A DNA stretch of 58,155 nucleotides from a virus. Within the stretch, counting starts at the first letter, position 1; each line of letters starts with the position of its first letter. A model generated the notes under the pieces. It was not told the DNA's origin. It made no database searches and was given only the letters and a program-made list of their open reading frames with translations. Below, one piece after another: positions 1 to 36,900 of this stretch. The DNA is taken from positions 1-58,155 of the IMG/VR virus record IMGVR_UViG_3300003690_000009; one strand, written 5' to 3'. The translations under genes and the position numbers were made by a program.

Positions 1-211
1 TCGGCGTCGCCGCACCCACCCACGCGCCGATGCTATTGAACTCCAGATACTCCCGCGCGTCCTCCTCGCTCATCCCGTCACGGCGCACGAGCACCGCAAT
101 GGCTTTCGGGATGGAGTAGACCGCGACGTCCGGCTGACTACAGCGACGGCCGAGGCCGATCAACGCCCCCTCCAACCCGTCCGCCAGCAGAATCCCGTCA
201 GGTACGCGCAT
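1..211 (-). CDS. Conserved small phage protein, N-terminal part (runs off window edge)
   Basis: Open from ATG at 211 to the window edge, 70 codons. I recognise a small uncharacterised phage family: GLGRRCSQPD near residue 20, RRDGMSEEDA near residue 45 and FNSIGAWVGAATP at the edge. Its function is unknown. The start overlaps the end of the oxygenase gene by 14 nt, so the two are probably translated together. If the 8 bases shared by both window ends are collapsed, the frame continues into 58083-58155 and stops after 91 residues, which fits the family's usual size. Confidence 0.75.
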   Translation of the reverse strand, partial: MRVPDGILLADGLEGALIGLGRRCSQPDVAVYSIPKAIAVLVRRDGMSEEDAREYLEFNSIGAWVGAATP

Positions 212-3110: not shown

Positions 3111-3326
3111 ATGAAGTATCAGACACCAGCCACCCACGGCGACAAGTGGGACAGTCAGCCGCTGTTCGACACATCGGCACTCACCCCGGAGCAGGTGGCC
3201 GGGCTCAAGGCGGTACGAGCGGAAGCGGATCGCGTGTGGGAAGCAGCGTTTGGGAAGGACGAGTCCTACATTCCCCCGCCTGCGCCGTGGGACAACGACC
3301 AGGACGGTATCACCCGGGAAGTCTGA
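3111..3326 (+). CDS. Small acidic early protein (71 aa)
   Basis: Start chosen at 3111 because AGGAG lies 9 nt upstream; an in-frame ATG at 3072 has no such site. 71 residues, acidic, ending in IPPPAPWDNDQDGITREV. No family recognised. Its stop codon TGA (3324-3326) is also part of the ribozyme-like element that follows: T closes P2 and GA are the invariant junction bases. Confidence 0.7.
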   Translation: MKYQTPATHGDKWDSQPLFDTSALTPEQVAGLKAVRAEADRVWEAAFGKDESYIPPPAPWDNDQDGITREV

Positions 3327-3381
3327 GAGGCGCGGGCTCCGGCCCGCGTTAAAGGGTAGGACCGGTCTCAAGCCCCGGTCC
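3322..3381 (+). ncRNA. Twister-like self-cleaving ribozyme (type P5 order), element 1
   Basis: P2 3' strand TCT (3322-3324), invariant GA, T1 strand GAG (3327-3329), P1 hairpin 3330-3349, predicted cleavage U3350/A3351, then AA, P2 5' strand AGG, and P4 hairpin 3359-3381 with loop T-CTC-AAG. Loop CTC pairs with GAG, a covariant change from the CCC/GGG of other copies. Confidence 0.8.
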
Positions 3382-3409
3382 ACCGTCAACCATTCACCAG
3401 GAGGCACAG

Positions 3410-3631
3410 ATGAAGACGTCAGCGTATCAACTCGTGATGTTCGGGGTGTATGGGTGCTTGATGTTGGGCGGCGTGATCACGGCCAGCGTCGCCCTGGAGG
3501 CGGCAGCGGTCCAGACGGCGTCCGAAGGCGTGATCGTCGCCCTGGCGCTCGCGGGGTTCCTGGAGTTTTTCGTCGGCGTCGTCGGCGTGATCGTCTTCGT
3601 CGACCCCCGGCACGACCGGAGGGTTCAATGA
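3410..3631 (+). CDS. Small two-helix membrane protein
   Basis: 73 residues with two hydrophobic segments (about residues 8-30 and 41-64) and a short charged tail (DPRHDRRVQ), so probably a membrane hairpin. A good ribosome site (AGGAGG) lies 6 nt before the ATG. It overlaps the next gene by 4 nt (ATGA), implying coupled translation. No family recognised; a role at the host membrane early in infection is only a guess. Confidence 0.7.
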   Translation: MKTSAYQLVMFGVYGCLMLGGVITASVALEAAAVQTASEGVIVALALAGFLEFFVGVVGVIVFVDPRHDRRVQ

Positions 3632-3915
3632 GGGCGTACCGACCGCTGCCGAAGGACGCAGTGCTGACCCTGGTCAGGCGCGCCGCCATCGCCGCCCTGG
3701 CCCCACCGCCACCTTCCATCGTGAAGGCGGCACGGGACGACGGCGTCTCGACGCAAGTGTACGAGGACGCCATCGACCAGCGGGTCCAGCGCATGGAGAG
3801 GGCACTGGAGCGAATCGCGGCACTGACCCATGCTCGCCTGTTCGACGGCGAGACACTGCTGCTGGTCCCGGAGTTCTGGCGGGAGTGGCGCGGAGGCTAC
3901 CACGAGGAAGTGTGA
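3628..3915 (+). CDS. Early protein of unknown function (95 aa)
   Basis: Starts inside the stop of the previous gene (ATGA at 3628) with GGAGG 6 nt upstream, so the long upstream extension of this frame is not used. Mostly helical and charged, with a likely coiled-coil stretch (QRVQRMERALERIAAL). No family recognised. Its TGA stop supplies the invariant GA of the next ribozyme-like element. Confidence 0.7.
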   Translation: MRAYRPLPKDAVLTLVRRAAIAALAPPPPSIVKAARDDGVSTQVYEDAIDQRVQRMERALERIAALTHARLFDGETLLLVPEFWREWRGGYHEEV

Positions 3916-3967
3916 GGGCACGGCCACCGGGCCGTGTAAACGGTGCGACCGGTCCCAAGCCCCGGTC
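3911..3967 (+). ncRNA. Twister-like self-cleaving ribozyme (type P5 order), element 2
   Basis: P2 TGT (3911-3913)/ACG (3940-3942), GA 3914-3915, T1 GGG 3916-3918 pairing with loop CCC, P1 CACGGCC/GGCCGTG (3919-3936), cleavage U3937/A3938, P4 GACCGG/CCGGTC (3947-3967) with loop T-CCC-AAG. The layout matches type P5 twisters. Confidence 0.83.
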
Positions 3968-3998
3968 GACGTTCACCCATTCACCCAGGAGGCAAGAC

Positions 3999-4376
3999 AT
4001 GACAGACGTCAAGACGGCGATCGACTCTACCAGCCTGTGGGACTATGACGACCCCATCGCAGGTGCGGTCACCGACTCGCACCCGGAGGGCTACGACATC
4101 CCCAACTGGATCGACCAGGAGATCACCGGCACCACCGTTGCCGCCATCCGCCAGGGCGGCTGCGCCTCTGGCGCCTACATGGACGCCGTGACCTACTACG
4201 ACGCCCGCCGGACGATGGACGGACACGGGGACGCCGTATTGGAGTACATCGAGTGCGCCATGGGCGAGATTCCGCAGCCGAAAGACGGTGAAAGCTGGAG
4301 CGGGTTTGCGGTGTTTTATCTGTCCATGGCCGTTGAATTGTGGGCGGCAACAGAGTTTGACGACTGGGACCGGTGA
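3999..4376 (+). CDS. Acidic early protein of unknown function (125 aa)
   Basis: ATG at 3999 follows AGGAGG by 6 nt; upstream parts of the frame cross the preceding RNA element and are not coding. 125 residues, strongly acidic, with a tryptophan-rich C-terminus (WSGFAVFYLSMAVELWAAT, then EFDDWDR). Acidic small early proteins are sometimes DNA mimics that block host enzymes, but nothing in the sequence proves that here. No family recognised. Confidence 0.72.
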   Translation: MTDVKTAIDSTSLWDYDDPIAGAVTDSHPEGYDIPNWIDQEITGTTVAAIRQGGCASGAYMDAVTYYDARRTMDGHGDAVLEYIECAMGEIPQPKDGESWSGFAVFYLSMAVELWAATEFDDWDR

Positions 4377-4378
4377 CG

Positions 4379-4439
4379 TGTGATGGGACGGGGCCGCAGT
4401 GGCCCCGTTTAAGCGGTAAAGCCGGTCCAAAGCCCCGGC
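4379..4439 (+). ncRNA. Twister-like self-cleaving ribozyme (type P5 order), element 3
   Basis: P2 TGT/GCG (4379-4381, 4413-4415, with wobbles), GA 4382-4383, T1 TGG 4384-4386 pairing with loop CCA, P1 GACGGGGCC/GGCCCCGTT (4387-4409), cleavage U4410/A4411, P4 GCCGG/CCGGC (4421-4439) with loop T-CCA-AAG. T1 is changed on both sides relative to element 2. Confidence 0.82.
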
Positions 4440-4466
4440 CGACGTTCCTCTCACCTGGAGGTAGAC

Positions 4467-5054
4467 ATGACGAAGAAAGATCCCACCCGCGATGACTGGC
4501 TCGCCCGCGCCGTGACGGCGCTGCGGCCACTGTTCGCGGCGGCCGGACACCCCATCGGCGCGCAGCTGATCCGTGTGTCGGTCGGGTTCCCATCGAAGCG
4601 CGCGATGGCGGGCAAGTGTCAGCGCATCGGTGAGTGCTGGGACCGCGCCGACGACGACGGGGTGCCGCAGTTGTATATCTCGCCTGTGCTCGATGAGCCC
4701 GTGCGCGTCCTGGACGTCCTGCTGCACGAACTCGTCCACGCGGCGGTGGGCAACAAAGCCGGGCACAAAGGCCCGTTTCGGAAGGCAGCGATCGCCCTGG
4801 GTCTCACCGGCAAAATGACTGCTACCGTGGCCGGGGACGCCCTCGCGCTCACGCTCACGGCGATGGCTAAGACGCTGGGGCCGTTTCCCCACGCGGCCCT
4901 GGACCCGTCGCAGGGACGGCCCAAGCAGTCGACGAGGATGCTCAAAGCGGAGTGCCTGACGGACGCCTACATCGTGAGGCTGTCCCGGAAGATGATTGAG
5001 GAACACGGGTGTCCCGTGTGCCCGACCTGCCAGGAGCAGATGACCGAGGCGTAG
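4467..5054 (+). CDS. SprT-like zinc metalloprotease
   Basis: 195 residues. The active-site helix LLHELVHAA gives HExxH at 87-91 with a third ligand candidate H100 (GHKGPF), the SprT/Spartan arrangement. The family's C-terminal zinc ribbon seems partly degraded: C163, C182, C185 and C188 remain but spacing is irregular. SprT-type proteases act on DNA-bound proteins; phage copies are common and poorly understood. It might strip host proteins from DNA early in infection. A GGAGG site precedes the ATG, and RNA elements lie on both sides. Confidence 0.8.
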   Translation: MTKKDPTRDDWLARAVTALRPLFAAAGHPIGAQLIRVSVGFPSKRAMAGKCQRIGECWDRADDDGVPQLYISPVLDEPVRVLDVLLHELVHAAVGNKAGHKGPFRKAAIALGLTGKMTATVAGDALALTLTAMAKTLGPFPHAALDPSQGRPKQSTRMLKAECLTDAYIVRLSRKMIEEHGCPVCPTCQEQMTEA

Positions 5055-5114
5055 GGTGAGGGCACGGGCTCCTGGCCCGTGTAAACGGTGCGGACCGGTC
5101 CCAAGCCCCGGTCC
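5055..5114 (+). ncRNA. Twister-like self-cleaving ribozyme (type P5 order), element 4
   Basis: GA 5058-5059, T1 GGG 5060-5062 pairing with loop CCC, P1 CACGGGC/GCCCGTG (5063-5081), cleavage U5082/A5083, P4 GGACCGG/CCGGTCC (5092-5114) with loop T-CCC-AAG. P2 is the weakest of the set (GGT/ACG, two pairs and one G-G). Confidence 0.8.
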
Positions 5115-5128
5115 AGAAAGGGTAGAGA

Positions 5129-5350
5129 ATGAGTAGAGCTTTAGCGATTATGCAGCGGGGAGGTATCAACGCCGTGCAGAAACGCATCGAACTCCTGGAC
5201 TCCGAGCCGGGTGCGTGGGGCCATGAACCCCAAGACTGCGAATATGGGCACTTCGACTGTAGCTGTAGCCCCGGAGGGGCCTGCAACGACGAACTGATGG
5301 GCCTTGTGAACCGGTCCCAAGCCCCGGTCCAGAAAGGTAGGAGAGCATGA
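5129..5350 (+). CDS. Small cysteine-rich early protein (73 aa)
   Basis: Starts 8 nt after a GGGTAG ribosome site. The cysteine/histidine cluster CEYGHFDCSCSPGGAC could bind a metal. The last 14 codons are encoded by a remnant of the intergenic RNA element (P4 and loop at 5310-5328), so the C-terminus looks acquired and the original stop may have been lost. Its stop overlaps the start of the next gene (ATGA). Confidence 0.6.
   Translation: MSRALAIMQRGGINAVQKRIELLDSEPGAWGHEPQDCEYGHFDCSCSPGGACNDELMGLVNRSQAPVQKGRRA
5310..5328 (+). ncRNA. Partial ribozyme-like element (P4 stem-loop only)
   Basis: ACCGG, loop T-CCC-AAGCC, CCGGT, the same P4/L4 as the full elements, but the P1 hairpin and cleavage site are missing. 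It lies inside the coding end of the preceding gene, and is probably a decayed copy. Confidence 0.6.
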
Positions 5351-5646
5351 TCTTTAGACTGAGCAGTGACACGGCGGTGGTGCCCGTCCGGGTGAACCTG
5401 AGCCTGGAGCAGCAGGTGCTATTGCTGCGGATCATCACACGCTATCACCGCCCCCCGCGCGGAGAACACTACCCGCTGGTCAACGACCCGCAACAACATC
5501 GGCGCGATGGAACGACGGCATCGGCCCTGGGCCGCAAGGGGCTGGTGGTCTGGAACCGCCCGGCCAAGACGGCGACCCCCACCATGGAGGGGTTCTGGTT
5601 GGGCGACGCACTCCGCATCGAGGCACGGCGGCGTGAGGCCGAGTAG
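5347..5646 (+). CDS. Early protein of unknown function (99 aa)
   Basis: The ATG overlaps the preceding stop and has GTAGGAG 6 nt upstream. The sequence suggests a winged-helix fold: a helical segment (SLEQQVLLLRIITRYH) and TASALGRKGLVVWNRPAKTA, which resembles a recognition helix and wing. A small regulator of host or phage transcription is plausible but unproven. RNA element 5 follows 3 nt after its stop. Confidence 0.68.
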   Translation: MIFRLSSDTAVVPVRVNLSLEQQVLLLRIITRYHRPPRGEHYPLVNDPQQHRRDGTTASALGRKGLVVWNRPAKTATPTMEGFWLGDALRIEARRREAE

Positions 5647-5648
5647 AT

Positions 5649-5710
5649 CCTGAGAGGCACGGGGGAATCGCCCCCGTGTGAAAGGGCCGTCCAGGTCTCA
5701 AGCCCTGGGC
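5649..5710 (+). ncRNA. Twister-like self-cleaving ribozyme (type P5 order), element 5
   Basis: P2 CCT/AGG (5649-5651, 5683-5685), GA 5652-5653, T1 GAG 5654-5656 pairing with loop CTC, P1 GCACGGGGG/CCCCCGTGT (5657-5679), predicted cleavage G5680/A5681, P4 GTCCAGG/CCTGGGC (5689-5710). The base before the scissile bond is G, not U, which may slow cleavage. Confidence 0.78.
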
Positions 5711-5745
5711 ACCGTCAACCGTCCACCATCCTCCGAAGGAGAGAC

Positions 5746-6078
5746 ATGGCCGAATATCGAATCACCGGCACGTACATCGGCAGGGACGCACGACCACTCC
5801 GCAAGGCGCTAGGTAATCTCGGCGTCAACGCACGGGTCCAGAAGGTGGACCGCCACCCATCGCGGGCCAGCCGATTCTCGGAAGCGCTCGACCGCATCCG
5901 GCACGGCCAGGAAGACCTCGTGGAACTACGCGACGAGCTTCAAACATGGCGCGACAACCTCCCGGAGAACCTGGAGGACGGCCAGAAAGCCGAACAATTG
6001 GACACGGCGATTGACCAGCTGACCGAATTTGAGGAGATCGAGGTCGACGTCGACGTCGACTTTCCGACCATGTTCTAA
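5746..6078 (+). CDS. Helical early protein sharing a segment with the giant virion protein
   Basis: 110 residues; ATG preceded by GAAGGAGAGAC. Mostly charged helices with an acidic C-terminus (EVDVDVDF). Codons for LDTAIDQLTEFEEI (5996-6040) are identical over 45 bp to a stretch of the minus-strand giant virion gene (33649-33693), read in the same frame. Function unknown; the shared segment may be an interaction helix copied between genes. Confidence 0.72.
   Translation: MAEYRITGTYIGRDARPLRKALGNLGVNARVQKVDRHPSRASRFSEALDRIRHGQEDLVELRDELQTWRDNLPENLEDGQKAEQLDTAIDQLTEFEEIEVDVDVDFPTMF
5996..6040 (+). repeat. 45-bp perfect repeat, early copy
   Basis: Identical to the reverse complement of 33649-33693, with no mismatch over 45 bp. 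It encodes LDTAIDQLTEFEEI in both genes. Confidence 0.95.
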
Positions 6079-6080
6079 GT

Positions 6081-6141
6081 GGCGATGGGCGCGGGCCTTC
6101 GGGCTCGCGTGAAGCCCCCAGCGCCGGTCCAAAGGCCGGGC
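6081..6141 (+). ncRNA. Twister-like self-cleaving ribozyme (type P5 order), element 6
   Basis: P2 GGC/GCC (6081-6083, 6114-6116), GA 6084-6085, T1 TGG 6086-6088 pairing with loop CCA, P1 GCGCGGGC with GCTCGCGT (one wobble; 6089-6110), predicted cleavage G6111/A6112, P4 6123-6141 with loop T-CCA-AAG. Confidence 0.77.
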
Positions 6142-6168
6142 ACAGTGAGGCAGGGAGAGAGGACAACA

Positions 6169-6372
6169 ATGCTGCAAGTGACATTCCAGCAGGACGGCAA
6201 GGTGCAGGTTTTTGCGATGCAGGACGGGGACGTGGTCAGCGTGACGACAGACGCCAATCGCCTGCCGACTATGCTGCCAGCCGAGACAGCCGAGATATTG
6301 TGCGGTGCCGTGGCTGAACTACACGAGACGCTCTCGGCAGTGATGCCACGGACGCTCAAAATCGTGTCCTGA
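6169..6372 (+). CDS. Small early protein of unknown function (67 aa)
   Basis: Start set at 6169 because GGGAGAGAGG lies just upstream and the longer frame reads through the RNA element. The N-terminal half (LQVTFQQDGKVQVFAMQDGD) looks like a small beta-sheet and the C-terminal half is helical. No family recognised. The 34-nt gap to the next gene has a ribosome site but no RNA element, so the two probably stay on one processed message. Confidence 0.62.
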   Translation: MLQVTFQQDGKVQVFAMQDGDVVSVTTDANRLPTMLPAETAEILCGAVAELHETLSAVMPRTLKIVS

Positions 6373-6406
6373 GAGGTCCGGGGCGTTCACCTGGAGGGGG
6401 AGACAG

Positions 6407-6589
6407 ATGAAACAGAAAACGTGCGAGGTATGTGAGGTCGGGTATACGTCCGGGTGTACCAACTCCCGGTGCATGGAATGCCACGACAAATACTGTACGC
6501 CGGGCGGGGCCACGTCCCCCGGACACTACCCCGGACACCCACCGACATCTCGCTTGTGGCCGAGATCGGTGCAACCAGAGAAGGCATAG
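6407..6589 (+). CDS. Small cysteine-rich protein, likely zinc-binding (60 aa)
   Basis: Ribosome site GGAGGGGGAG precedes the ATG. Cysteines come in pairs: CEVCEVGYTSGC, then CMECHDKYC, suggesting one or two zinc sites in the first 31 residues, followed by a proline-rich tail. Function unknown; such fingers in phage early operons often bind nucleic acid or host proteins. Only 4 nt separate it from the next gene. Confidence 0.6.
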   Translation: MKQKTCEVCEVGYTSGCTNSRCMECHDKYCTPGGATSPGHYPGHPPTSRLWPRSVQPEKA

Positions 6590-6593
6590 GGTG

Positions 6594-6830
6594 ATGGAGA
6601 TGCAAGACGATGAACGTGACTACGACGAGGATCGGCGGATGCCGGACGGCACCACCTTCGCCACTCCCGGCTCGGCGTTGCGCTCGGCCACGGCCCGCAA
6701 CCCACGCAACCTGCCATGCCCCACCTGCGGGCAGGCGAACCGGCTGACGCCAGCGGATCGCCGGGCGGGGTATCAGTGCGACACCTGCGCTGACCGCGCG
6801 GAAGGTGTCTACATGGGCGGCGACTACTGA
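6594..6830 (+). CDS. Zinc-ribbon protein (78 aa)
   Basis: A CxxC...CxxC ribbon (CPTCGQANRL, then YQCDTCADR) sits in the C-terminal half behind an acidic N-terminus. Start chosen at ATG 6594, close behind the preceding stop and after AGGGTG; ATG 6600 is also possible. Probably one processed message with the two genes before it. Partner unknown. Confidence 0.62.
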   Translation: MEMQDDERDYDEDRRMPDGTTFATPGSALRSATARNPRNLPCPTCGQANRLTPADRRAGYQCDTCADRAEGVYMGGDY

Positions 6831-6841
6831 CGGCAAGATAG

Positions 6842-6899
6842 GGCGATGGCACGGGCTCCGGCCCGTGTAAACCCGCTACGACCCGGTCCACAGTCCGGG
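6842..6899 (+). ncRNA. Twister-like self-cleaving ribozyme (type P5 order), element 7
   Basis: P2 GGC/ACC (6842-6844, 6871-6873; one A-C mismatch), GA 6845-6846, T1 TGG 6847-6849 pairing with loop CCA, P1 CACGGGC/GCCCGTG (6850-6867), cleavage U6868/A6869, P4 CCCGG/CCGGG (6882-6899), loop T-CCA-CAG-T. Confidence 0.8.
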
Positions 6900-6941
6900 C
6901 GATGTTCACAGACAGGCGGGACAACCACGAAAGGGGGCGCT

Positions 6942-8951
6942 ATGACGCTCAGGTTCGACCCAGCCGTCGCCCAGTATATCTGGGACGGAGGCTACACCAA
7001 CCGACACCTGCCGAAAGGGGCTGGGATGCGCTGGAACCCGGCGCTGCGGCACTGGTGGACGGATTCCGACGAGAGGGCCGCAAAGCTGATCGAGTTTGCG
7101 GACCCGGCCACGGCGGCTCGGCTCCGGCCTAACGCCACGGCACACGCGGACGCGCTCACGGCCTCGCGGGCCAGCAGCGCCGACGTCACGATCTCTGCCC
7201 CGGACGGCTACACCTACCGGGACTTCCAGCTAGCGGGGATCACGTTCGCCCTCAACCGCGATGCCACGCTGATCGCGGATGAGATGGGGCTTGGGAAAAC
7301 GATCCAGGCAATCGGCCTGATCAACGCGGACCCAACCATCACGCGGTGCCTGATCATCTGCCCGGCGAGCCTCCGGCTCAACTGGGAACGCGAACTGCAA
7401 CGGTGGCTGACCCGGAAGTTGTCGATCGGGATCGCCACCACCAAGGATTGGCCCGACACCGATATCGTGATCGTGAATTACGATATCGCCTGGCGCGCTG
7501 GCGTCGCCGGTCCGATCAACGCCGAGACGTGGGATCTGGTCTGCCTGGACGAGAGCCACTACGTCAAAAACCCCGACGCGAAGCGCACCCGCGCGATCGT
7601 CGGGCAGCCCCGGTCCAAGCGGGGCGGCGCAGCGCACCCCGGCATCCGGGCTCGGCGCAAGCTGGCCCTGACCGGTACGCCGATCACCAATCGCCCGAAG
7701 GAACTGTTCAGCACGTTGCACTGGCTCGCACCCACGGCGTGGCCGAATTTCTTCGGCTTCGCCAAGCGGTACTGCAACGCGCACAAAATTTCGATTGGGC
7801 GCGGTCGGACAGCCTGGGACGTCGGCGGGGCCAGCCACCTGGACGAACTCCAGGACCGGCTTCGCAGCACGATCATGGTGCGCCGACTGAAGGCCGACGT
7901 ACTGACGGAACTACCCGCCAAGGTGCGGCAGGTGATCGAAGTGCCCGCCAACGGGGCTTCGTCTGTCGTCAAAGCAGAGCGGGACGCCTGGGCGGTGCAG
8001 GAGCGGACACTGGGTCCACTCCGGGCGCAGGTGGAGCGGGCCAAGGGCGGGACAGAAGCGGAGTACCGGGACGCGGTGCAGCGGCTCACCGCAGCGGAGA
8101 ACATTGCGTTCTCCGAAATGTCAGCCGCACGGCACGATACGGCCGTCGCGAAAATCCCGGCCGTCCTGGCCCACATAGTCGACGCCCTGGAGGCGTCCGA
8201 CGACGCGAAGGTTGTGGTCATGGCGCACCATCACGATGTGGTGGACGCCTTGCTCGACGGCCTGACCGGACAACTCACGACCGAGGGGCCATACCACCCG
8301 GTCTCGCTGACCGGGCGCACCCCGCTGGCCGACCGGCAGGCAGCGGTCGACCGGTTCCAGGATGACCCGGAGTGTCGGGTATTTGTCGGGTCAATCACGG
8401 CAGCGGGCGTGGGAATCACACTGACGGCATCGTCCCATGTCGTTTTCGCGGAACTCGACTGGGTGCCCGGCAACGTCAGCCAAGCCGAGGATCGGTGCCA
8501 TCGCATCGGACAGCAGGATTCGGTCCTGGTGCAGCATCTCGTGATTGACGGGACGCTGGACGCGCGCATGGCGCACACGATCGTCAAGAAGCAGAAGGTC
8601 ATCGACGCGGCACTCGACACCAAGCCGACGCCCACCGTCCTGGTGGCAGAGTCGCCCAAAAAGCAGCAGGTCGCCCTCCAGGCGGACCGGCTACTCCCCG
8701 AGGACGTCGCGGCAATTCATGCCGCCTTGCAACGGCTCTCGGGGATGTGCGACGGCGCGCGCCACCTGGACAGCGCGGGCTTCAATAAGCACGACACCGA
8801 CATCGGCAAGTCGCTGGGGAACGTCCAGGCACTCACGGCCAAGCAGGCCGTGCTGGGGTTGCGAATCGTCCGGAAGTACCGCCGACAGCTGGACTCGGCC
8901 ATGGTGGACGCACTGACGGCGGCGGCGGATCGCATCAGGAAGGAGGGGTGA
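6942..8951 (+). CDS. SNF2-family (SMARCAL1-like) DNA translocase
   Basis: 669 residues from ATG 6942, after GAAAGGGGGC; the frame's upstream extension reads through RNA element 7. The N-terminal 50 residues (FDPAVAQYIW, GMRWNPALRHWW) resemble the HARP-like module of annealing helicases. Then comes the SF2 core: Walker A DEMGLGKT (113-120), DESH box (203-206) and motif VI QAEDRCHRIGQ near 513-524. SNF2 enzymes move on duplex DNA, remodelling forks or displacing proteins. It probably acts in phage replication or recombination. Largest early gene; its TGA stop overlaps the next RNA element. Confidence 0.87.
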   Translation: MTLRFDPAVAQYIWDGGYTNRHLPKGAGMRWNPALRHWWTDSDERAAKLIEFADPATAARLRPNATAHADALTASRASSADVTISAPDGYTYRDFQLAGITFALNRDATLIADEMGLGKTIQAIGLINADPTITRCLIICPASLRLNWERELQRWLTRKLSIGIATTKDWPDTDIVIVNYDIAWRAGVAGPINAETWDLVCLDESHYVKNPDAKRTRAIVGQPRSKRGGAAHPGIRARRKLALTGTPITNRPKELFSTLHWLAPTAWPNFFGFAKRYCNAHKISIGRGRTAWDVGGASHLDELQDRLRSTIMVRRLKADVLTELPAKVRQVIEVPANGASSVVKAERDAWAVQERTLGPLRAQVERAKGGTEAEYRDAVQRLTAAENIAFSEMSAARHDTAVAKIPAVLAHIVDALEASDDAKVVVMAHHHDVVDALLDGLTGQLTTEGPYHPVSLTGRTPLADRQAAVDRFQDDPECRVFVGSITAAGVGITLTASSHVVFAELDWVPGNVSQAEDRCHRIGQQDSVLVQHLVIDGTLDARMAHTIVKKQKVIDAALDTKPTPTVLVAESPKKQQVALQADRLLPEDVAAIHAALQRLSGMCDGARHLDSAGFNKHDTDIGKSLGNVQALTAKQAVLGLRIVRKYRRQLDSAMVDALTAAADRIRKEG

Positions 8952-9004
8952 GGGACGGGGCCAGTGGCCCCGGTAAACCACAACGTCCGGTCCCAAGTCC
9001 GGAC
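8947..9004 (+). ncRNA. Twister-like self-cleaving ribozyme (type P5 order), element 8
   Basis: P2 GGT/ACC (8947-8949, 8977-8979), GA 8950-8951 (part of the helicase stop codon), T1 GGG 8952-8954 pairing with loop CCC, P1 CGGGGCC/GGCCCCG (8956-8972), cleavage U8974/A8975, P4 GTCCGG/CCGGAC (8985-9004), loop T-CCC-AAG-T. Confidence 0.83.
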
Positions 9005-9027
9005 ACAACCACAGAGAGGGGGCACAC

Positions 9028-9375
9028 ATGCCCAAGGTCGAATTGTTCAGGTTGTCGGTGCAGGGCCACATTGACTGGCAGAACCTGCTGGACGCCGTGT
9101 CCGAGACCATCGACTTCAGCCACCTGGAGCAGTTGAACCGGGCGGTGGTCACACGGATGCGCGCGCTACGAGGCGTCGAAGAGTCCACCGCTGCCCTGGG
9201 GTTCACGTTGGGACAGCAAGTGGAATTCACGGGCAAGCGGGGCATCCACCGAGGGACGGTCATCAAGGTGAACCGCAAGAGTATCAGTGTCAAGGAGACG
9301 TCCGGTCCACGGTGGAATGTCTCCCCGACGTTGTTGCGGCCGGTCCGCGCAGCGATCGATCATGTGAAGGCATGA
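9028..9375 (+). CDS. Early protein with KOW/SH3-like C-terminal half (115 aa)
   Basis: The C-terminal half (about 60-110: LGQQVEFTGKRGIHRGTVIK, then WNVSPTLLRPV) has the strand-turn pattern of KOW/SH3-like barrels that bind RNA, DNA or protein. The N-terminal half is helical. It could be a small nucleic-acid-binding regulator. GAGAGGGGG precedes the ATG. RNA elements lie on both sides. Confidence 0.7.
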   Translation: MPKVELFRLSVQGHIDWQNLLDAVSETIDFSHLEQLNRAVVTRMRALRGVEESTAALGFTLGQQVEFTGKRGIHRGTVIKVNRKSISVKETSGPRWNVSPTLLRPVRAAIDHVKA

Positions 9376-9435
9376 GGTGAGGGGTGCGGCCACTGTGGCC
9401 GCATTAAACCACAACGTCCGGTCCCAAGTCCGGAC
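9376..9435 (+). ncRNA. Twister-like self-cleaving ribozyme (type P5 order), element 9
   Basis: P2 GGT/ACC (9376-9378, 9408-9410), GA 9379-9380, T1 GGG 9381-9383 pairing with loop CCC, P1 GTGCGGCC/GGCCGCAT (9384-9404), cleavage U9405/A9406, P4 GTCCGG/CCGGAC (9416-9435), loop T-CCC-AAG-T. Confidence 0.85.
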
Positions 9436-9450
9436 AGAAAGGATGGCAGA

Positions 9451-9759
9451 ATGCCACCACATCCAGTCAGAAAGGACACGCTGGACAGGCAGATTGACTG
9501 GCTCAACAGCGCGTCCGGTGGAGACTACAGTCTCGACTGGGCCAACGGCGGAGTCCAGATCGCCTGCGCGGGCGGGTCGCACATCGTCTCCCCGCGACGG
9601 GGGACCAAGCGCGAGGTCGACGCTCAACTGCGGGTCATGGTCGAGGCGGTCAGACGCTACAAGGCCCGCATGGCGCATGTGGTGATGCGCTGCGACACCT
9701 ACGGGAAGGTCGGCCGCACGGTCGAACGGATCGTGGTACCCGAGGAGGACTGGCGATGA
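9451..9759 (+). CDS. Early protein of unknown function (102 aa)
   Basis: 102 residues starting after AAAGGATGG. The pattern is helix, short beta segment (YSLDWANGGVQIACAGG), long helix (REVDAQLRVMVEAVRRYKAR), then a beta end. No family recognised. It overlaps the next gene by 4 nt, so the two are coupled and probably share one processed message between elements 9 and 10. Confidence 0.68.
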   Translation: MPPHPVRKDTLDRQIDWLNSASGGDYSLDWANGGVQIACAGGSHIVSPRRGTKREVDAQLRVMVEAVRRYKARMAHVVMRCDTYGKVGRTVERIVVPEEDWR

Positions 9760-10031
9760 GTAATCACTGGGTCATCACGGCAGATCACGTCGCAGCACCG
9801 GGTGCGAAGCCGCGCACCAACAGCAACGCGGTCGGCGTCGCCTCGCGGGGCTACCTCGACGGCGAGACGCTGCCGGTGGAGTTCCGCGCATACGACGGGG
9901 ACGGGGAGTTGTACTACGAGGGGCGGATGCAGGAGGAAGACTTCCACCCCATGGACGACTTCTGCCGACCGAACGCCGGGTGTGTCGAACTCCGATATCG
10001 CCGGGGCACCGGCTCCTGGAAGATACTCTGA
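9756..10031 (+). CDS. Early protein of unknown function (91 aa)
   Basis: Starts at ATGA overlapping the previous stop, with GAGGAGG upstream. 91 residues, acidic, beta-rich in appearance (EFRAYDGDGELYYEGRM, then CVELRYRRGTGSWKIL). No family recognised. Last gene before the operon's internal spacer. Confidence 0.68.
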   Translation: MSNHWVITADHVAAPGAKPRTNSNAVGVASRGYLDGETLPVEFRAYDGDGELYYEGRMQEEDFHPMDDFCRPNAGCVELRYRRGTGSWKIL

Positions 10032-10091
10032 GGTGAGGGGTGCGGCCCCCGTGGCCGCATTAACCCGCAACGCCTGGTCCCAAGTCCAGGC
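10032..10091 (+). ncRNA. Twister-like self-cleaving ribozyme (type P5 order), element 10
   Basis: P2 3' strand GGT (10032-10034), GA 10035-10036, T1 GGG 10037-10039 pairing with loop CCC, P1 GTGCGGCC/GGCCGCAT (10040-10060), cleavage U10061/A10062, P4 GCCTGG/CCAGGC (10072-10091), a double compensatory change relative to element 9. Confidence 0.84.
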
Positions 10092-10454
10092 AGGATCTTA
10101 TGCAGGGAGGTGCCATTTCTGGCCTTCCAGGTGCCATTTCGGGCCTTTCAGGAGGATCTTTCGTTTCTTTCGCAAGTTTGTGGGGGGGTAGCACAGACCG
10201 ATGTGCGCTTCAGCAGGCGACAACCGGACAGACGGGGGTTGATCACTTCCGCGCTGCCGGGCGTCGCCCCTGACACCAGCGAGCCTTACAGGGTGATCAC
10301 CTGGCCGGTTTCGTGGGGTGGAGGGCTGACGCCCTCAGAGACGCTGGATCAATCCCCAGCCCCCCTCTTCCCAAACCTACAGCCAGAGCGTTTACACGCG
10401 ACGCGAGGCGCTACACCTAATCCGCGCACAATTACCTACCGCGCCTGCCAGGGC

Positions 10455-10524
10455 ACTGAACCTACGGCCACCGGATCGACTGAACCTACGGCCACCGGAA
10501 TGCACAGACTGAACCTACGGCCAG
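10455..10524 (+). repeat. Three direct repeats upstream of a promoter
   Basis: actgaacctacggccaccgg at 10455 and 10479, and a shorter copy at 10508. They sit about 15-85 bp upstream of the -35 at 10539, where activator or repressor sites would be expected. Confidence 0.75.
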
Positions 10525-10843: not shown

Positions 10844-11130
10844 GTAAAGTGAAGCGGGCTTGCATGGTGTGTGGACGGATGATCTCCGTGAAGTATGCCA
10901 TCCAGAACAACGGTGGTGGCAAGCAACGTGTGCGACATCTGTGTCCACATGGGGTGGTGTGCATTACTGGAGTCGGTCCTACGTATGGCACAAGCTCGAC
11001 CGGTGCGCCACCAATCGCCGGACCAAATTCCTGCAAAGAATGTGGACGCAGGAAATTCCTGGAACTTCACGGAATGTCCGGGAACTTCCCGGAGATTCCC
11101 GCTGAAGAGAAGAGAAAAGAACTGAACTGA
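10840..11130 (+). CDS. Small cysteine-containing protein whose C-terminus is repeat-encoded
   Basis: Starts in the preceding stop (ATGA). Has CMVCGRM, HLCPHG and CKECGRR, a possible zinc site. The last 25 codons are encoded by the third decamer array (11050-11101) plus a purine tract, the same combination found non-coding at 850-962. The original protein may be shorter and extended by insertion of the array. Confidence 0.55.
   Translation: MSKVKRACMVCGRMISVKYAIQNNGGGKQRVRHLCPHGVVCITGVGPTYGTSSTGAPPIAGPNSCKECGRRKFLELHGMSGNFPEIPAEEKRKELN
11050..11101 (+). repeat. Tandem 10-bp palindromic repeat array, copy 3
   Basis: Five decamers of the TTCCsGGAA family followed by gaagagaagagaa, which is the reverse complement of the layout at 850-962. 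Here it lies inside a coding frame. Confidence 0.75.
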
Positions 11131-27922: not shown

Positions 27923-30900
27923 CTAGGGCTGCGGGTCTCCGGACCGTCGCCCAATACTCTCAAATGGTTCATTCCGGCGCCTGTTAAAACTCTCCATCAC
28001 GTCCTCTGAGAGCAGCGTGGTACCCTGCAACGCGCGATAGAAGACGTCGAATTCCTCTTCGGTGCCGCGCTTCCTCGCGGCATCCACCATGCGATGCAAA
28101 TACCCAACCTTGAGGCTATTTCTCGCCAAACTGTCAAAGGCTCTGAAAAAATGCTGATGCTCTCCCGTGTTGAGGGCTATCCTCTCCCGAAGGGCTCGTT
28201 CCATGGAATTCCGTTGTGCCGCTAGCATTCCATCGGAAAAGAGATCCGGTGCCTCCTCTTCCAGGCGGCTGATCGCCTCATCTAGCTGGTTGAAAATCGC
28301 ACCCTCACGTTGGTTGAGGGATGTCTCCAAGACGTTCTTCAGGGCAACCGTAATTTCATCGCGTATGCGGTTACGCCGTTCCACCACAGGCGCATTCGCT
28401 ATCTGCGCCTCACGATCCGTCGCCTCTTCCTCGCCGTACGACGAGAAGCGAACAAAGCGGCCAAGCACGTTATACGCGAGGGGCGCCTCAAAGATCCTCT
28501 GTAAAACTCCCGGCGCATCCGGTCCCTCACTGGGTTTACTAAACCACCGAGCTTTACTCATGATCTGCCCGAAACCCATTTGCCGGAATTCATACGAGAT
28601 CAATGTCTTGAGGCGTTTCCAGCGTCCGTAGCCCTCCTGCAACAACATCTCTTCACGGCTGAACACACCACGCTGACGGAACGGATCGTACGGATTCTCG
28701 CCCTTGAGCACAGCGGTCACATCCGCAAGAAACCCAAAAACAGGAATCGCTGTGGGAACCTGTCCGGACGTATAGGCCGCCACGGCCTGCACCGTCTTCC
28801 ACACCTCTATGTCCCCTGCCATGAGACCGCCCCTGAGCATGTTCCACGTAATCGCACCAATCACGCGACCCGTATCATCCTGTGGGAGACGCAGGTGCAT
28901 CACCTCTCCCGTATCCGTTCGCATCATCGGGATGATGAAAAAATTCGTTTTGGCGTATGCCGGAACCGAGCGCATGAAATCCGACAGCTGTTTCTTATAG
29001 CGATCCACCGGACGCATATCACCTGCCGCAACCCCAAATATGCCACCAGCAATCAGGCCCGGCACACCACCCACCGTCGCGCCGACCGTCCCCCAAAACC
29101 CAGCATCCTTGAGCTTGTCCCACATCTCTTCATCGTCGTCGTCAGCCTTGCCCCACCATCCCAGCGTCGCGGCCATCATCATGACCTTGGGCAATACCGT
29201 CATCCGCGCCGTCTTCCACAAATACCCAGACCGCGTCTCGGACTCCGTCATCGTTTTGATGTCACTGCGCCAGCCCTGGATAATGGCGTTGGAGAACAGG
29301 AACAGATTATTCGTCAGCGGCTTCCACGTTCCACCCGCCAGGAAGTCCGGACTCCCCACGCGCTCCCGAATGAACGCCCGCTCCTGTTCAGTCAGGTCCG
29401 CAATGCTACGGTCTACCGTAAAGTGATGTATCGCGGCGGCCTTGGGCAACGTCTCAACAAAGTCCCCAATGGACGAGACCCAGTTCGCATACCCAACAAT
29501 CGCGCGCGGGATAATCGACCGCTTTTCTGGCTCCGGACTCAGCATCCCTCCTTGCTTGAGCAACCGTTCCATCTCGGCATCTTGAATGTTTCCGGCGCCC
29601 GGCTCAAAGCCACGCCCGATGTTCGCCATGGTGGCGGACAGGATGCGTCCCTGATAGCTTCCCTGCAACTCCTCAAATGCTGCCAGCTGTCGTTCTGTGG
29701 GCGGTTTGCCCTTCTTGAGTAGCCCAAACGCGCGCCTCCGGCCCTCCGTGGGGAGCCCATAAGCGCGCACCCGTCCCACCGTGCGGGCGCCCCAGTACAG
29801 CCTCACCGCCTTAAAGACCGACACGCTGCGACGTTTGCCGCCGCGCAGTCCCCTGTGTGACATGGCCTTCCAGAATCGGAAGAAGTCACGAATGAGGTTG
29901 TATCCCTGGAATCCCAAATTGGCCGTCGTGAACATCGGACGGAACCAAGTATTGTTCATCTTTTCAAGGATCTTGATGGCCGCATTTTGATGGCCGATGG
30001 AATCATTGTTCAGGGATTGTGCAACATACAGATCCACCCAGACGCCCTTGACCTTGCCCTTCTCGTAATACTTCACCAGCCCCCACGTCACCTTGTCGAG
30101 TGGCGACGTCGGAGGTTGCGGCACGGGAACTCCATTCACCGTGCTGATCGGGGCCGCTTTCACCTCATCAGCGAAGAACTTATTCAGAAACCGCAGTCCG
30201 GCCGACTTGATCTTTTGGCGCTCTACCGCCTGCAAGACCAACAGCGTCTTCATCATGGTGGAATCCGCCGGATTGGCAACAGCCTGGATGGTGCCAACTT
30301 GATGATGGACCCGCGCATCCAGCGCCTTATCCATGTGCTCCACGACACGGAACGTGGCATACGCCGGGTTCGCCATCATTTGCTCATACATCTCATCGCT
30401 GTAGAGCCCTGCCTGATGCGCTTTTTCGGTGACGGTGTTCACTGCTGTGCGGAGCAACTGAATCTGCTCTCGCAGGAACACCTGTTCCTCCTTGGTCATC
30501 GGTATAAATTCACCGTCCGGCCCACGCCGAAACGTCTCGATCATGTGGTCGTACTGTTCCTGGGCACGCGCTCCACTCAATCCATGCGGGTTGGCAATGC
30601 CGCCCCGGTCACCTTCCGTCATACGCTCAAACTCCAGCGCCATTCCGAAAACCTCCCAGGCGTGGTGTCCGAACCTGTTGTCGTTCAACGTACTCTTGAC
30701 CAAGGCTGTGAGTATCGGCTGAAAGTATTCATCCGAGAACGCCTTGGTGATGCTCCCGATATAGCTCCTGGCTGACAGCAGGTGCCGAATATCAAAATCT
30801 TCAGAGACGGCATGGCGCCCCAGCCGCTTCATCGTCTTGACTATACGGTCAATCATTGCGGCATTATTATCGACAAACGCCACGCGCATCCATGTCCAGA

Positions 30901-33900
30901 CGTCCCATTGCATGGCCTTGACACGAGCCGCCATTGCCTCCGACGCCTCCATAATCACCTCAAACGAGCGCCGGTATCCCCTCACGATGTTAATGTTGAC
31001 CGCGTCAAGCATGTCCTCTCTGATGCCACCCAAGAGCGCTTGGATGTCAAAAAAGGCTCTCTCTATCTCGGGGGCGGCTTTCAACTCTTTGAAGAATTGC
31101 CTGTAGAACTTCGGTGCATAGGTGGAAAACACCCCCGGATTCACCAGAATGCCTGAAATTGCATCGGCGTACAACTCCACCGCGCTGTTCCGGTAGCGTT
31201 TATACGCGGGCGAAGGATTGTCAGGCCACGGGCGCCACTTCGCTGAAAACTCTATCAGTTCTTTACGCAATTCCGCGTTCGTGATGATCGTGCCCTCCTG
31301 CGAGACGAACGTCCCTTTCATGTGGTTCTTTAATTTCCTGAGACGGCCTATCAGATTCCCTCGACTCAACTGCCCCTCTTCAAGCCAGTCCACGACGTGC
31401 CCGATCTCATGCGCCAGCACCCGCGCCAGTTCAATAGCCTGTCCCGGCTCTTTTCCTGTCTCAAACAAGTCCGCGAGGAGCGTGATCCGTTGTCGTTTGG
31501 GACTAAACGTCCCGAGCGTCCCCGCCTTCCCCCTCAATCGCTTGACGATAGCAATGATCTCTTTGTCGGGCCTTCCCAGAAGCTCCCTGACGAGACTGAT
31601 CATTTCCGGCAACTCCAGCGGTTGAATCATCTCCCGACGCTGTTCCTCACCTGTCCGCTTGTCCTCACCTGTCCGCTGTGCCTCGGCCAGATCCAGCAGC
31701 GTCTGTGTTTCCGAGACGGCCGGTCCAGCACTCGGCCGATCCATCGTGGCCTTGCCCAGCGCATCCTTGTAGAGCGCCGCTATCTCATTCTCGTAATCAG
31801 ACAACTGCTCTAAGAGGTCTCCCCATTCTTCCCGGAGCACCTGCATGAATTCGGACTCGCTCAGATACTTCCCGGTCTCCTGGAACCTGGCCCCCAAGTA
31901 GCCGACAGACCACTGAGTCAGAGCCAACAGTATTTTCGCCGCCTCCGTTGGGTCCACCAACGCATGCAGGCGCGTGGGGTCACCCAGGCGCTTCATGGCC
32001 TCCGCCATGGTCTCCTCGGCATCCTCCTGCATCTGCTCAAACAGCCCAGGCTCCACGGGCGTCCGTGTCGCGGCTTCCCCGGTCAGCGCGAACGGCGCCT
32101 CCGCCACCTTGGTCTCTGCCGCCTCGGTCGGCATCTCGACGCCCGGCAGCAGCGGATCGTCCCGCACCACCTCAAAGCCCCCGTCCTCAAACGCCTTCAC
32201 CTGCTCCTCGACGGTGGTCTCGGCCAGGTCTGCGACCTGCGCGACGTCACTGTAGCTGACGCGCTTCCCCTCGACATCCAGGGTGGGGGTCGTTCTGATC
32301 GCGCGCAGCAGCGACAGGTTGAACAACTCCTTCAGATTGGCGGTGGCCTGAGACATGAACCCTGGCAAGTCCTTCGCCATGGCATCTCGCCAGCGAGAAT
32401 ACAACTCCGATGACTGATGCACGCCGGAGATCACGAGCTTGGCGATCTTGACAGCCCCGATGGTCACGATCGGACTCAGAATCGACAGGTCAACTCCCGC
32501 CGTGATCTGCGTCCCTCCCGTGAGTTGCTTTAGCTTCGCCTTGAGCTTTACTGTTTGCTCTTTCTCTATGGCTTCAAAAAAGCCCAGCAGCGTCTTGGCC
32601 CCCGTCCCTTCCTTCTCCGTCCCGAGAAAGGGCATCCCCAGAGCGATGATCGACTCTTGCATCTCGGGCGTGATCGGCATGGAATGAACGGTTTCCCACG
32701 TTGCAGGCTCCGGCTCTCCGCGTGTGGGATACTCTTCACTCCATGCTGAAGGTACGTCTTTGGTCATCACCTCGGCGTCGGAGACGGTCGAACGCCACGG
32801 CTTGCCGAACTTATTCATCAGCCGGACCAGCATCTTGTCGTAGAACTCTGCCATGCCCGTCTTGTCGATTCGGATACCCTTTCCCTCAAAAAAGCCTGTC
32901 TCCTCCTTCGACGTGAGCACATCATTCGCCATCGCCCGCCCGATGGCATCCGGAAGCATCTCTCTGGAAAACTTCTTGGTAGCAACTGTCTCCCATAATT
33001 GAGCAGCCGGTCCCTCTGCTAGAACCCTCTCGCCACCTACCCACACGCTGCCCCCAGTCACATCCGACACCGCCCCCGGATGTCGTTGCCCCTCCACGCG
33101 AATTTTGCCATCAGGGGTTTTCGTCCAGGTAATCCGGTCGAACTTTTCACGCAGTCGGCTCTCCCAGCGCTCCACCTGCTGGATGCCGGTCGTCCAGGCA
33201 ATCGCATCGACGCCCTCGGACGCGGCAAAGTGCAGCATCCGACGCATCCCCAGTTCCGCCCAGCTGGTCTTGAACGGCGCATCCGGCACCCGATCGGCCG
33301 CAAATTCACGCGGTGCATCAGCCAGTTCAACCCGATCGTCAGCTATCGCGCGAGACAACTCGCGCTGGACCCGACGACGCACGATGGCCTTCGCCGCAGC
33401 CTGCGCCCGGAACCCCCTGACCTCCGTGACGGTAGTTGCCAGTTGTTCCAGCGACGGTGACATCAACGCACGACGCGCGCCCCCCTGCACCTGTGCTTCA
33501 TCCTGGTAGGTGCGAAGGTCGTCAGCCAAAAGTATCGTTAATTGAGCAGCCGTTCTCTCTTCAATAGGCCCGGTCGGATGAATCCAATACTCTGCGTGCG
33601 GCGGGTGCGCGGGGTGGGGCGCTGGCGGAGGCACGGTCGGCACACCTGCGATCTCCTCAAATTCGGTCAGCTGGTCAATCGCCGTGTCCAATTCACTTGT
33701 CAGAGCCTCCGAGACCCACTGGGTGTAGGCACGTTCCTGGAGCGGGTGATCAAACTCCCATAGGATCTGTTTCCCCGTCTTGGTGACTGCTACCTTCAGT
33801 CCCGCTCCTGGAAGATCATAGATTTTTTGACGAAGCGACTCAACATTCGTGACTTCTTCCGATTCTGGAATTCGTACATACGAGGCATCGTCGGGAAGCC

Positions 33901-36900
33901 ACACCTTGTTCAGTTTCTCCCTGAAGTCTGCTGGCAGATCCTCTGGAGACTCCGCCATCATCCACAAGAGTTCCAGCCGATCGATCGCCCGACGCTGCTG
34001 TCCCTCAAGACTGATATTGCGCGCGGCGATCGTCATGTCTCTGACTTCACCCTCTGCAATTTCAAACTCCTCTTCAGCCGCGACCAATCTCGTGCGTGCC
34101 GCTGCGAAGCGCTGTCGAATGCGCGCTTTCTGTTCCGTGTTTAATTCCCCTCGCACCATCTCCGAAACAGGCTTGCCAGGGAGTGGGCGCCTTACCGTCT
34201 CCACGTCCCCGTCCGGAAGTTCAGTGAGACGACCGAACCAGTCTCCAGCTAATTCAAACGCGATGTCGCTCAACTCGTCTGAAGTCGGGTCGACGATCAG
34301 CGTGTCTTCTGGAACCGTCCAGGTCTCTTGAAACGGCACACCCCCACGAATACCGGGCTCCACCTCCGTGACAACGTAGCTCTGCTGGGCCGGGTCATAC
34401 GCAACTGTGTATTTTGCTGTCGCTGTCGTATCTCTCTGGTAACCAAAGTCGCCCGGCACGAGCGCGCTGCCCATTTCATCGGGGAAGGCCGCCTCTGCGG
34501 CTTCCTCGCCAAAAATGGGACCGGCTGCTAATACATCCAGGGCGGCTGCATGTTCCTCCACCAAGCGCTCCCTCTCCACCTTGAGTCTCCGCTTGATCTC
34601 CTTTGTGCGGACCTTGCGCGCGTCCTCATGCCAGTCCGATTGTATTTCCTCGACAAACAACACGGTGCGCCCGTCGCGGGTTTTGCGAATGTTGAAGCGT
34701 ATGAATGCGATGACGTTCTTGGTTCCGGGGTAATGAAAATCTTCCACGAAGTCTGTAGCCCCTGGTGCCTTCAGGCGGCTCGGCAACACCAGCAGCACGT
34801 TGCGATACTGCTCCCCACTCGCCGGAGTGTCTGTCTCAAGCCCTGACAGCGTATACTGGCGCCACTTCGCTGGCTTGCCGCGAGGCACCTTCCGTTGCAT
34901 CTCTTCTTGCACATACGTCGCAGCCTGTTCCTTGCTTTCAAAGGTCGTACCTCCTCTGCCGATGCCTGCGCTTGGAAATTCAGCGATCCAGTAATCATGC
35001 TTCGTCAAGCTCGCTATCTGGCGATCGGTGAGGTCCGTCACGTCTTGGTCGAGAAGACTGCGCTGGACTTTCGTGAACGGGACGTTCCCTCGCGTCAGCC
35101 TGACCTTTCCTGTGACCGTCTGCCGTCCCGGCCCTGCCGCCATGCGAGGATCGTCTCTTCGGTATACCCCTCCACCAGGTCTCGGGACCGGGGCATCTGC
35201 GGTGATGGTCACATCAGATTCGTCCGTCAGCGCGCGCCACGTATCATATTGACGTTGCGTGAGAGGGATTACTTGGTCCGGCTGGGCCAGATCCAACGCA
35301 CGCTGCCCAACGAGCTTGGTCTCCTTGAATTCCAGCGTCTCGGACGGTGCGCCATAGATGTCTTCCTCCACTTCCAGGGCGTGCGACCGGAGGTAATCCA
35401 GAACCTCGTTTTTCGTCACCGTTCCTTGGCGCTGTCCCCTCAACCACTGCACCACGCCGCTCCATTTCATATCCTCCTTGGAGAGAGCGCTTTTTTCAAA
35501 CGTCCTGATCAAGGACTCAATGTTAGGTATTGGAGCCATTCCGCTCCCACGCGCCACCTCAACCAGCTTCTTGTAGAACGGAGGCGACCCCGTCAAGGTC
35601 TTCTGCACGATCGTGGCAGCCCCGGCCTTGGCGGCCTTATACATCTCCACAAGGTAGTCCGACACCCGCTCGCCAAACTCCCCCTCCATCACCTTCGTGA
35701 ATCTCTTGAAGCCCATCTCCCTGCCCCTGAGCGCGGCGATGCGGATTTTCAGCGTCGCCAACTCCGTGACGGCAAGAATGTCTCTGGGGTCCAACCCCGT
35801 CCTGACGATATTGGGATCGAGAACACGGCCCGGCTGCCGCATTCTTTCCGTGACAGCTGATTCAAGACGAATCAGCATATCCAGAAGAATCTTGAATTGG
35901 GGCTCAGAAGGTGGGGGTCGTACGCTTACTCGTCGTCGTCCGCGAACACTTCTTCCATCGTCTGCGGCATCGGGCCTGGGAGGCCCATCGGTATCTGGTC
36001 GAGGTCGTCCCCGTTCGGGGGCACGCTGAACTCGTCCTCTGTCGCGAGCAGCCGCCGCACGTACTGCGCGTTGGTCACCACCTCTCCGGGCGCCTTGAGC
36101 CCAAATGGGAGTGGAAAATCCTTCTGAGGCTTCAAAGATGTCTTTGTAGAGGGCATTGCGACTGATCCTACCACGCGCATACCGCAGCCACAAGTGGCCT
36201 GTTTTCTTCACCAATCCGGCCTTCTTCTGGGGCGTCGTGAAGAGCGACCGTGCCGCCTCCCAAACCACCGACTGCACCTCACGAGGCAGCACCGGGTCCG
36301 CTGCCGTGCTGAGTGCTTCTGCCGCACGGAAGTACGCCTCGGCTACCACCGCATTCACACCCACCAATCCAGCCGAATCACTGCTTGGAGCCCCCTTCCC
36401 TTTCCCAAACGCCCACGTCACTTCCGGGTCGCTTATCCCAAAAGCTTGCATGAAGGCAGCGGCCACAGCGTGCGTATCAATCGTCACCGCGTTGGGATTG
36501 GAGGGATCGAAAATGTTATTCGCGAAGGACCGCACCTTCGGCGTCTCCCCTAGCTGTTCATTGATATTGGAGTCGCTACCGTCTTCAATGATAGAGAGCG
36601 CACGGGCCAGCGGTCCGTACGCAGCTGGCTTGAGACCCAATAGCTCCCCGGCCCCAAGGCCAGCCTTCGTATCAGCGTGAGCGAGTTCGTCACCATACAC
36701 ACCAGGAACCACGTTCCCGCTTGGACCGTACGAAGGGAAGTGAATCGGATACTTCGTGGGATTCAGTTCCATCACCGCACGGCCCATCTTCGCTCGTCCT
36801 AGTTGTGGAAGCTCACTCCACCGTTTCCCCTCCAGGGCTGCATCTTCATCGAATATTCCTTGGCGAATAGCACGATATTTCCGAAGTGTCGTCTCAGACA

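Follow-up and report, generated by a model that had tools for sequence, protein, structure and literature searches.

The whole IMG/VR virus record IMGVR_UViG_3300003690_000009 (58,155 bases, hereafter the window) was analysed. Ten short elements lie on its + strand along a run of protein genes at 3.1 to 10.0 kb. By every computable feature, the single elements are ordinary members of the Rfam family Twister-P5 (RF02684). We consider it probable that they are type-P5 twister ribozymes which cut a polycistronic phage mRNA at gene boundaries, and we think that they serve to segment phage mRNAs and to protect the resulting ends. The evidence consists of the family match, the covariation of the paired strands, a tight placement between stop codon and ribosome-binding site, and the recurrence of the elements in other phages. 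For most self-cleaving ribozymes of bacteria and phages, the function has yet to be explained. When many different phages carry a ribozyme at almost every gene boundary and in a fixed position, a single function is indicated, namely mRNA segmentation.

Identity and covariation of the ten elements

A covariance-model scan of the whole window was carried out with RF02684, whose gathering score of 37.6 bits is the curated cut-off. Nine of the ten elements were above it (40.4–56.5 bits). The tenth, at 6842, reached 37.0 bits and was 0.6 bits short. All ten were full-length matches (model positions 1–58) on the + strand. No further site in the window was above the cut-off, and no Rfam family other than RF02684 passed in the window. 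The first-pass annotation of this DNA, which was made from the letters alone, had named the twister family, had listed ten elements with the strand order of the P5 circular permutation and had proposed a search with the Rfam type-P5 model. The elements are all present where it had placed them, and the scan agrees with it in family and in strand order. A separate covariance model, R1, was built from 29 copies with only the P1 and P4 pairs given. The ten window copies are among these 29, so that RF02684 is the independent test. Run unfiltered over the whole window, R1 scored the ten elements at 73 to 40.4 bits. The next best was a fragment at 5309–5328 (15.8 bits, E 0.005), and below it nothing in the whole window exceeded 8.4 bits, which is noise. 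The coordinates are collected in Table 1.

Table 1. Twister-P5 copies and selected genes of the window, with scores in bits
Feature	Coordinates (strand)	T1/L4 triplets	Predicted cut	Upstream stop and remarks	RF02684	R1
Copy 1	3322..3381 (+)	GAG/CTC	3350/3351 (U/A)	Stop TGA 3324-3326 of the upstream open reading frame overlaps the ribozyme's GA	45.6	53
Copy 2	3911..3968 (+)	GGG/CCC	3937/3938 (U/A)	Stop TGA 3913-3915 overlaps the ribozyme's GA	46.0	55.3
Copy 3	4379..4441 (+)	TGG/CCA	4410/4411 (U/A)	Stop ends at 4376	41.3	47.3
Gene between copies 3 and 4	4467..5054 (+)			phrog_6361, 3.6e-45; DNA resembles that of annotated SprT-like protease genes from Arthrobacter and Microbacterium phages		
Copy 4	5055..5114 (+)	GGG/CCC	5082/5083 (U/A)	Stop ends at 5054	40.5	59
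Partial eleventh copy	5305..5344 (+)			P4 hairpin and ribosome-binding site only, without catalytic core; R1 model positions 39-58		15.8
Copy 5	5649..5711 (+)	GAG/CTC	5680/5681 (G/A)	Stop ends at 5646	42.9	42.5
Copy 6	6081..6143 (+)	TGG/CCA	6111/6112 (G/A)	Stop ends at 6078; UUCG loop closes P1	40.4	44.7
Copy 7 (weakest)	6842..6902 (+)	TGG/CCA	6868/6869 (U/A)	Stop ends at 6830; L4 has CAG in place of AAG; helicase gene directly downstream	37.0	40.4
SNF2-type helicase gene	6942..8951 (+)			Between copies 7 and 8; PF00176, 5e-31; phrog_62, 2.5e-106		
Copy 8	8947..9006 (+)	GGG/CCC	8974/8975 (U/A)	Helicase gene ends in stop TGA 8949-8951, which overlaps the ribozyme's GA	56.5	70.5
Copy 9	9376..9437 (+)	GGG/CCC	9405/9406 (U/A)	Stop ends at 9375	56.3	71.1
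Last gene of the run	9756..10031 (+)			Followed by copy 10		
Copy 10	10032..10093 (+)	GGG/CCC	10061/10062 (U/A)	Stop ends at 10031; downstream of the run's last gene	44.9	73

The pairing of the ten window copies was compared with shuffled copies over 19 pairs. Paired cells amounted to 91.6%, against 70.9% in the shuffled copies, and doubly changed cells to 39, against 14.4. None of 500 shuffles reached either figure. By stem, T1 (the pseudoknot between L1 and L4) was paired in 100% of cells, T2 (the pseudoknot between L2 and L4) in 100% with G-U counted, P1 in 98% and P2 in 90%. The value for P4 was 80%, mainly because one extra loop base in four copies shifts the columns. The triplets that form T1 are GGG/CCC in five copies, TGG/CCA in three and GAG/CTC in two. 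The GA before T1, whose G we take from the known structure to be the invariant catalytic guanine, is found in all ten copies, as is the AA after the predicted cut. The base before that cut is U in eight copies and G in two (5649 and 6081). The earlier reading of the sequence thus held in each of these respects, namely the exact triplet counts, the compensated variation of P1, P2 and P4, the invariant GA and AA, and a U or G before the cut. In a review, the base preceding a twister cut is described as not conserved, and catalysis is attributed to an invariant guanine and to the adenine at the cut (PMC5408937).

Local duplication links some of the ten copies, since copies 8–10 have a common P4 and copies 1, 2 and 4 have another. 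Therefore, they do not represent ten independent origins, and copies from other phages were added to the covariation test. The wider alignment held 138 copies, of which 125 were distinct, and was made with a model that contains the P1 and P4 pairs only. The unmodelled P2, T1 and T2 were paired in 95.0% of 986 cells across the 138 copies, against 72.0% after shuffling, and this fell to 8–48% when a strand was slid. Among the 125 distinct copies, T1 was paired in 99.7% of cells, and each of its three pairs showed double changes. T2 was paired in 85.8% of cells over all copies. T1 appears in the alignment in at least eight forms (GGG/CCC, GGA/TCC, TGG/CCA, GAG/CTC, CGG/CCG, GTA/TAC, GCA/TGC, and GTG/CAC).

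Duplication has also left the partial copy at 5305–5344. It is a direct repeat, 88% identical to 5089–5128 (P4 of copy 4 with its ribosome-binding site), and stands ahead of the gene at 5347. It illustrates either the way in which copies multiply or an independent use of P4. The second possibility bears on the idea that the structures are retained chiefly for their hairpins, which would stabilise mRNA, space translation or terminate transcription, with cleavage secondary or absent. P1 and P4 are indeed strong hairpins, and the partial copy keeps just P4 ahead of a ribosome-binding site. However, only the catalytic fold needs the GA, the T1 and T2 pairs and the AA that follows the cut, and yet these are among the best-kept parts, and P1 is not followed by the U-run of an intrinsic terminator. 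We regard this explanation as improbable.

The window also contains an open reading frame of 4682 amino acids at 27923–41971 on the − strand, with partial N-terminal matches to phrog_2206 (2.5e-10) and DUF7178. The phrog_2206 family is that of virion RNA polymerases, and the repeats could in principle be hairpin promoters of an N4-like virion RNA polymerase carried by the phage. The match covers only an N-terminal part, however, and no virion RNA polymerase domain was found in the protein with Pfam and with PDB sequences. Besides, a hairpin promoter leaves the RF02684 scores and the T1 and T2 covariation unexplained, and the genes that surround the arrays differ greatly from phage to phage. 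Hardly any weight can be given to this idea, and the elements are treated below as twister ribozymes.

Placement between stop codon and ribosome-binding site

About fifteen genes, mostly short, are encoded on the + strand from 3.1 to 10.0 kb, including the SprT-like and SNF2-type helicase genes. Their content is that of a presumed early operon, and their strand and spacing suggest a single transcript. The portal, head and scaffold genes are on the opposite strand and have no ribozyme. Nine gaps of the run are filled by a ribozyme (3326–3410, 3915–3999, 4376–4467, 5054–5129, 5646–5746, 6078–6169, 6830–6942, 8951–9028, and 9375–9451), and the tenth ribozyme follows the end of the last gene at 10031. 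From 3327 to 9450, every gap of more than 40 nucleotides has one. The ribozyme-free junctions are overlaps (3628/3631, 5347/5350, and 9756/9759) or gaps of 4 nucleotides (6589–6594) and 34 nucleotides (6372–6407). No ribozyme starts further than about a dozen nucleotides from the stop codon of the preceding gene, and each ends 13–40 nucleotides before the next start codon. The gaps are thus composed of little more than stop codon, ribozyme, ribosome-binding site and start codon. Outside this pattern, the raw sequence shows repeated units resembling TTCCGGGAAATTCC that flank the gene run on either side, at about 890–962, 1140–1203 and 11048–11100. Just past the last ribozyme, at about 10100–10150 and 10455–10515, AGGTGCCATTTC.GGCC occurs twice and CTGAACCTACGGCCA three times.

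The same placement was measured with 125 copies. For each, the nearest same-strand stop was located, together with the next start codon that has a ribosome-binding site. Sequence patterns, including one with TGAGGG, were used to choose the sample, and the fractions describe this sample rather than all twister-P5 RNAs. The test was run on open frames rather than curated genes, in GC-rich DNA with many spurious frames. A start between –15 and +6 nucleotides from the end of a same-strand stop codon was found for 107 of the 125 copies (9.2% of random positions), and a ribosome-binding site with a start codon within 60 nucleotides downstream for 110 (16.3%). Both hold for 94 copies, compared with 2.5% of random positions. 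The random positions were drawn from the same loci and not from intergenic sequence alone. Part of the excess therefore reflects the avoidance of genes, which does not explain the tight stop offset. The commonest offsets are –2, –1, +1 and +5. At +1 (about 18 copies), P2 begins with the last G of a TAG stop, and at +5 (about 15 copies) a TGA stop supplies the catalytic GA of the ribozyme. Offsets down to –17 and beyond are also present.

This placement can be read in another way. A ribosome terminating at the upstream stop may unfold P2 and T1, and cleavage would then be restricted to times without translation of the upstream gene. An array of this kind would remove or separate messages by their translation state rather than cut constitutively. 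The clustering of stop-codon ends at –2 to +5 of the ribozyme start and the sharing of bases between stop and ribozyme speak for it, and a terminating ribosome would be expected to cover the 5' part of the ribozyme. Genome compaction alone gives the same placement, however, and the more distant offsets do not suit such a switch. We therefore hold gating by translation to be possible but doubtful, and constitutive segmentation is kept as the preferred reading.

Arrays in other phages

Besides the window, 18 virus records have at least three RF02684 matches, and the largest of these arrays has nine copies. Two more records were duplicates of counted sequences and were left out. A scan with the pattern TGAGGG..TAA..GTCCCAAG gave RF02684 matches in 21 of 100 tested records, most of its pattern matches being due to chance, while with stricter sequence patterns all 38 new virus records tested were real. 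The arrays were found in phages with quite different surrounding genes. A BLAST search of phages with ribozyme copies of the window and of locus L226 found nothing, and a BLAST match of a single ribozyme to Streptomyces phage Hippo was rejected as it is not a twister.

A 6.2-kb contig (L033) is a diverged relative of the window, with seven copies whose P1, P2 and T1 sequences are different. Its helicase is 51% identical to that of the window, and that of L226 29% (blastp). In all three, a twister-P5 stands directly upstream of the SNF2 helicase gene. The first gene of L033 ends like the window frame 9756–10031, as judged by eye from the C-termini, and is also followed by a twister-P5.

With one ribozyme as the query, BLAST also reached a cultured acidobacterial phage, Tunturiibacter phage Tunturi_4 (PP885687.1). 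It has four copies above the cut-off (L245:11050-15853), all unannotated and in gaps between annotated genes. Three of the four start at most 7 nucleotides from an annotated stop and the fourth 27 nucleotides after one. The word ribozyme is absent from the paper describing the phage (PMC11924767). Tunturi_2, 3 and 5 gave no RF02684 match. Tunturi_4 makes the idea of mRNA segmentation testable in a cultured phage. Copies also occur in bacterial contigs from metagenome-assembled genomes, with three in a Rhodobacteraceae contig (L161) and single copies above the cut-off in two Chloroflexi contigs (L158 and L160) and one Nitrospira contig (L163). These contigs are possibly prophages. In the twister-P5 array of L242, a pistol ribozyme (L242:2461-2531; RF02679, 64.7 bits) is located between two genes, just after a twister-like 5' half. 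This single case suggests that the ribozyme class is exchangeable at the junctions.

Could the copies be selfish or passively spreading repeats that gather in gaps since insertions in genes are lost? The shared P4 sequences and the repeat at 5305–5344 are signs of local duplication, and the loci of helicase relatives that were found by sequence (L136–L145) had no twister-P5 matches. On the other hand, the copies were all on one strand in every array scanned, without antisense copies. The stop-to-start placement is far tighter than gene avoidance demands, the stems stay paired through double changes, and neither a mobility gene nor an insertion signature turned up. Such an origin is unlikely, and a role of the arrays in processing is favoured.

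Proposed processing and known systems

The predicted cut lies between P1 and P2 of the transcript, at U/A and twice at G/A, and would turn a long polycistronic mRNA into messages of one or two genes. The upstream message would end in the P1 hairpin and one base with a 2',3'-cyclic phosphate. The downstream message would start with 5'-OH-AA, followed by about 9–12 bases and then by the P4 hairpin, with 45–73 nucleotides in all from the cut to the start codon. A hairpin on either side of the cut should shield both new ends from exonucleases. In the P5 form each product would keep a complete hairpin, while the type-P1 permutation would split the P1 strands between the products, and this is a possible reason for the use of the P5 permutation in these arrays. 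Such splitting between genes, in which every new 3' end retains P1, fits the anatomy of the junctions and is supported by the placement in many other phages. Catalytic activity, processing in cells and stabilisation of the mRNA are predictions from the same anatomy.

Several points weigh against the segmentation reading. Cleavage, transcripts and 5'-OH ends are predicted for this phage from its DNA, and the single transcript of the genes at 3.1–10.0 kb is deduced from strand and spacing. Several copies depart from the best consensus, with a T-C mismatch in P2 of 10032, a G-G mismatch in P2 of 5055 and the altered L4 of 6842. Overlapping genes would stay on one message, and not every gene is separated. 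A stop codon lies in or beside the ribozyme, and translating ribosomes could block folding. The array is also not obligatory for helicase genes, because L136–L145 lack it. More speculatively, stop codon, twister-P5 and ribosome-binding site might form a widespread module of tailed phages for self-segmenting mRNAs, in which cutting is tied to upstream translation by the built-in stop and other ribozyme classes, such as the one pistol seen, can substitute. We put this forward only tentatively.

The single elements resemble the type-P5 twister of RF02684 in strand order, in P1, P2 and P4, in T1 and T2, in the GA and the U/AA, and in the L4 motif. Taken singly, they do not differ from the family. 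The window is distinguished by ten copies in one gene run, all fixed between stop codon and ribosome-binding site. The early mRNA of phage T7 is polycistronic and is cut between genes by RNase III, and hairpin ends are left. The proposed processing would be analogous in its cuts between genes and its hairpin ends. A host protein enzyme does the work in T7, whereas here an RNA is encoded in each gap.

Hammerhead ribozymes of prophages, several of them flanking genes, were proposed in 2011 to process transcripts to operon- or gene-length mRNAs (Perreault et al., PMC3088659). In that study, clustered phage hammerheads cut polycistronic transcripts of about 2 kb in vitro, and one trio did so also in E. 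coli. The window has the same arrangement of several co-oriented ribozymes that flank single genes or gene blocks. The sets tested there are tandem hammerheads with one triple, and abutment on stop codons is not described in the portion consulted; here there are ten twisters. Twister and hammerhead ribozymes were also found to be enriched in the neighbourhood of Mu-like phage genes and of other ribozymes, for a reason that PMC10085705 calls unknown. The phage association and the clustering are alike. Those data are gene-neighbourhood statistics, and the part of the text consulted does not describe a layout of one ribozyme per junction. The theta ribozymes of gut phages, which are HDV-like (resembling the ribozyme of hepatitis delta virus), have a proposed role in RNA processing (PMC10879173). 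They are likewise phage-encoded and self-cleaving, but they are located at tRNAs for removal of the 3' trailer, and the ribozymes of this study lie between protein genes. The ribozyme family (RF02684) and the idea of phage mRNA segmentation (PMC3088659) are therefore already known. New beyond PMC3088659 and PMC10085705, as far as the consulted parts go, are the scale of ten copies per gene run, the rule of stop codon, ribozyme and ribosome-binding site that many phages share, and a phage available in culture for tests.

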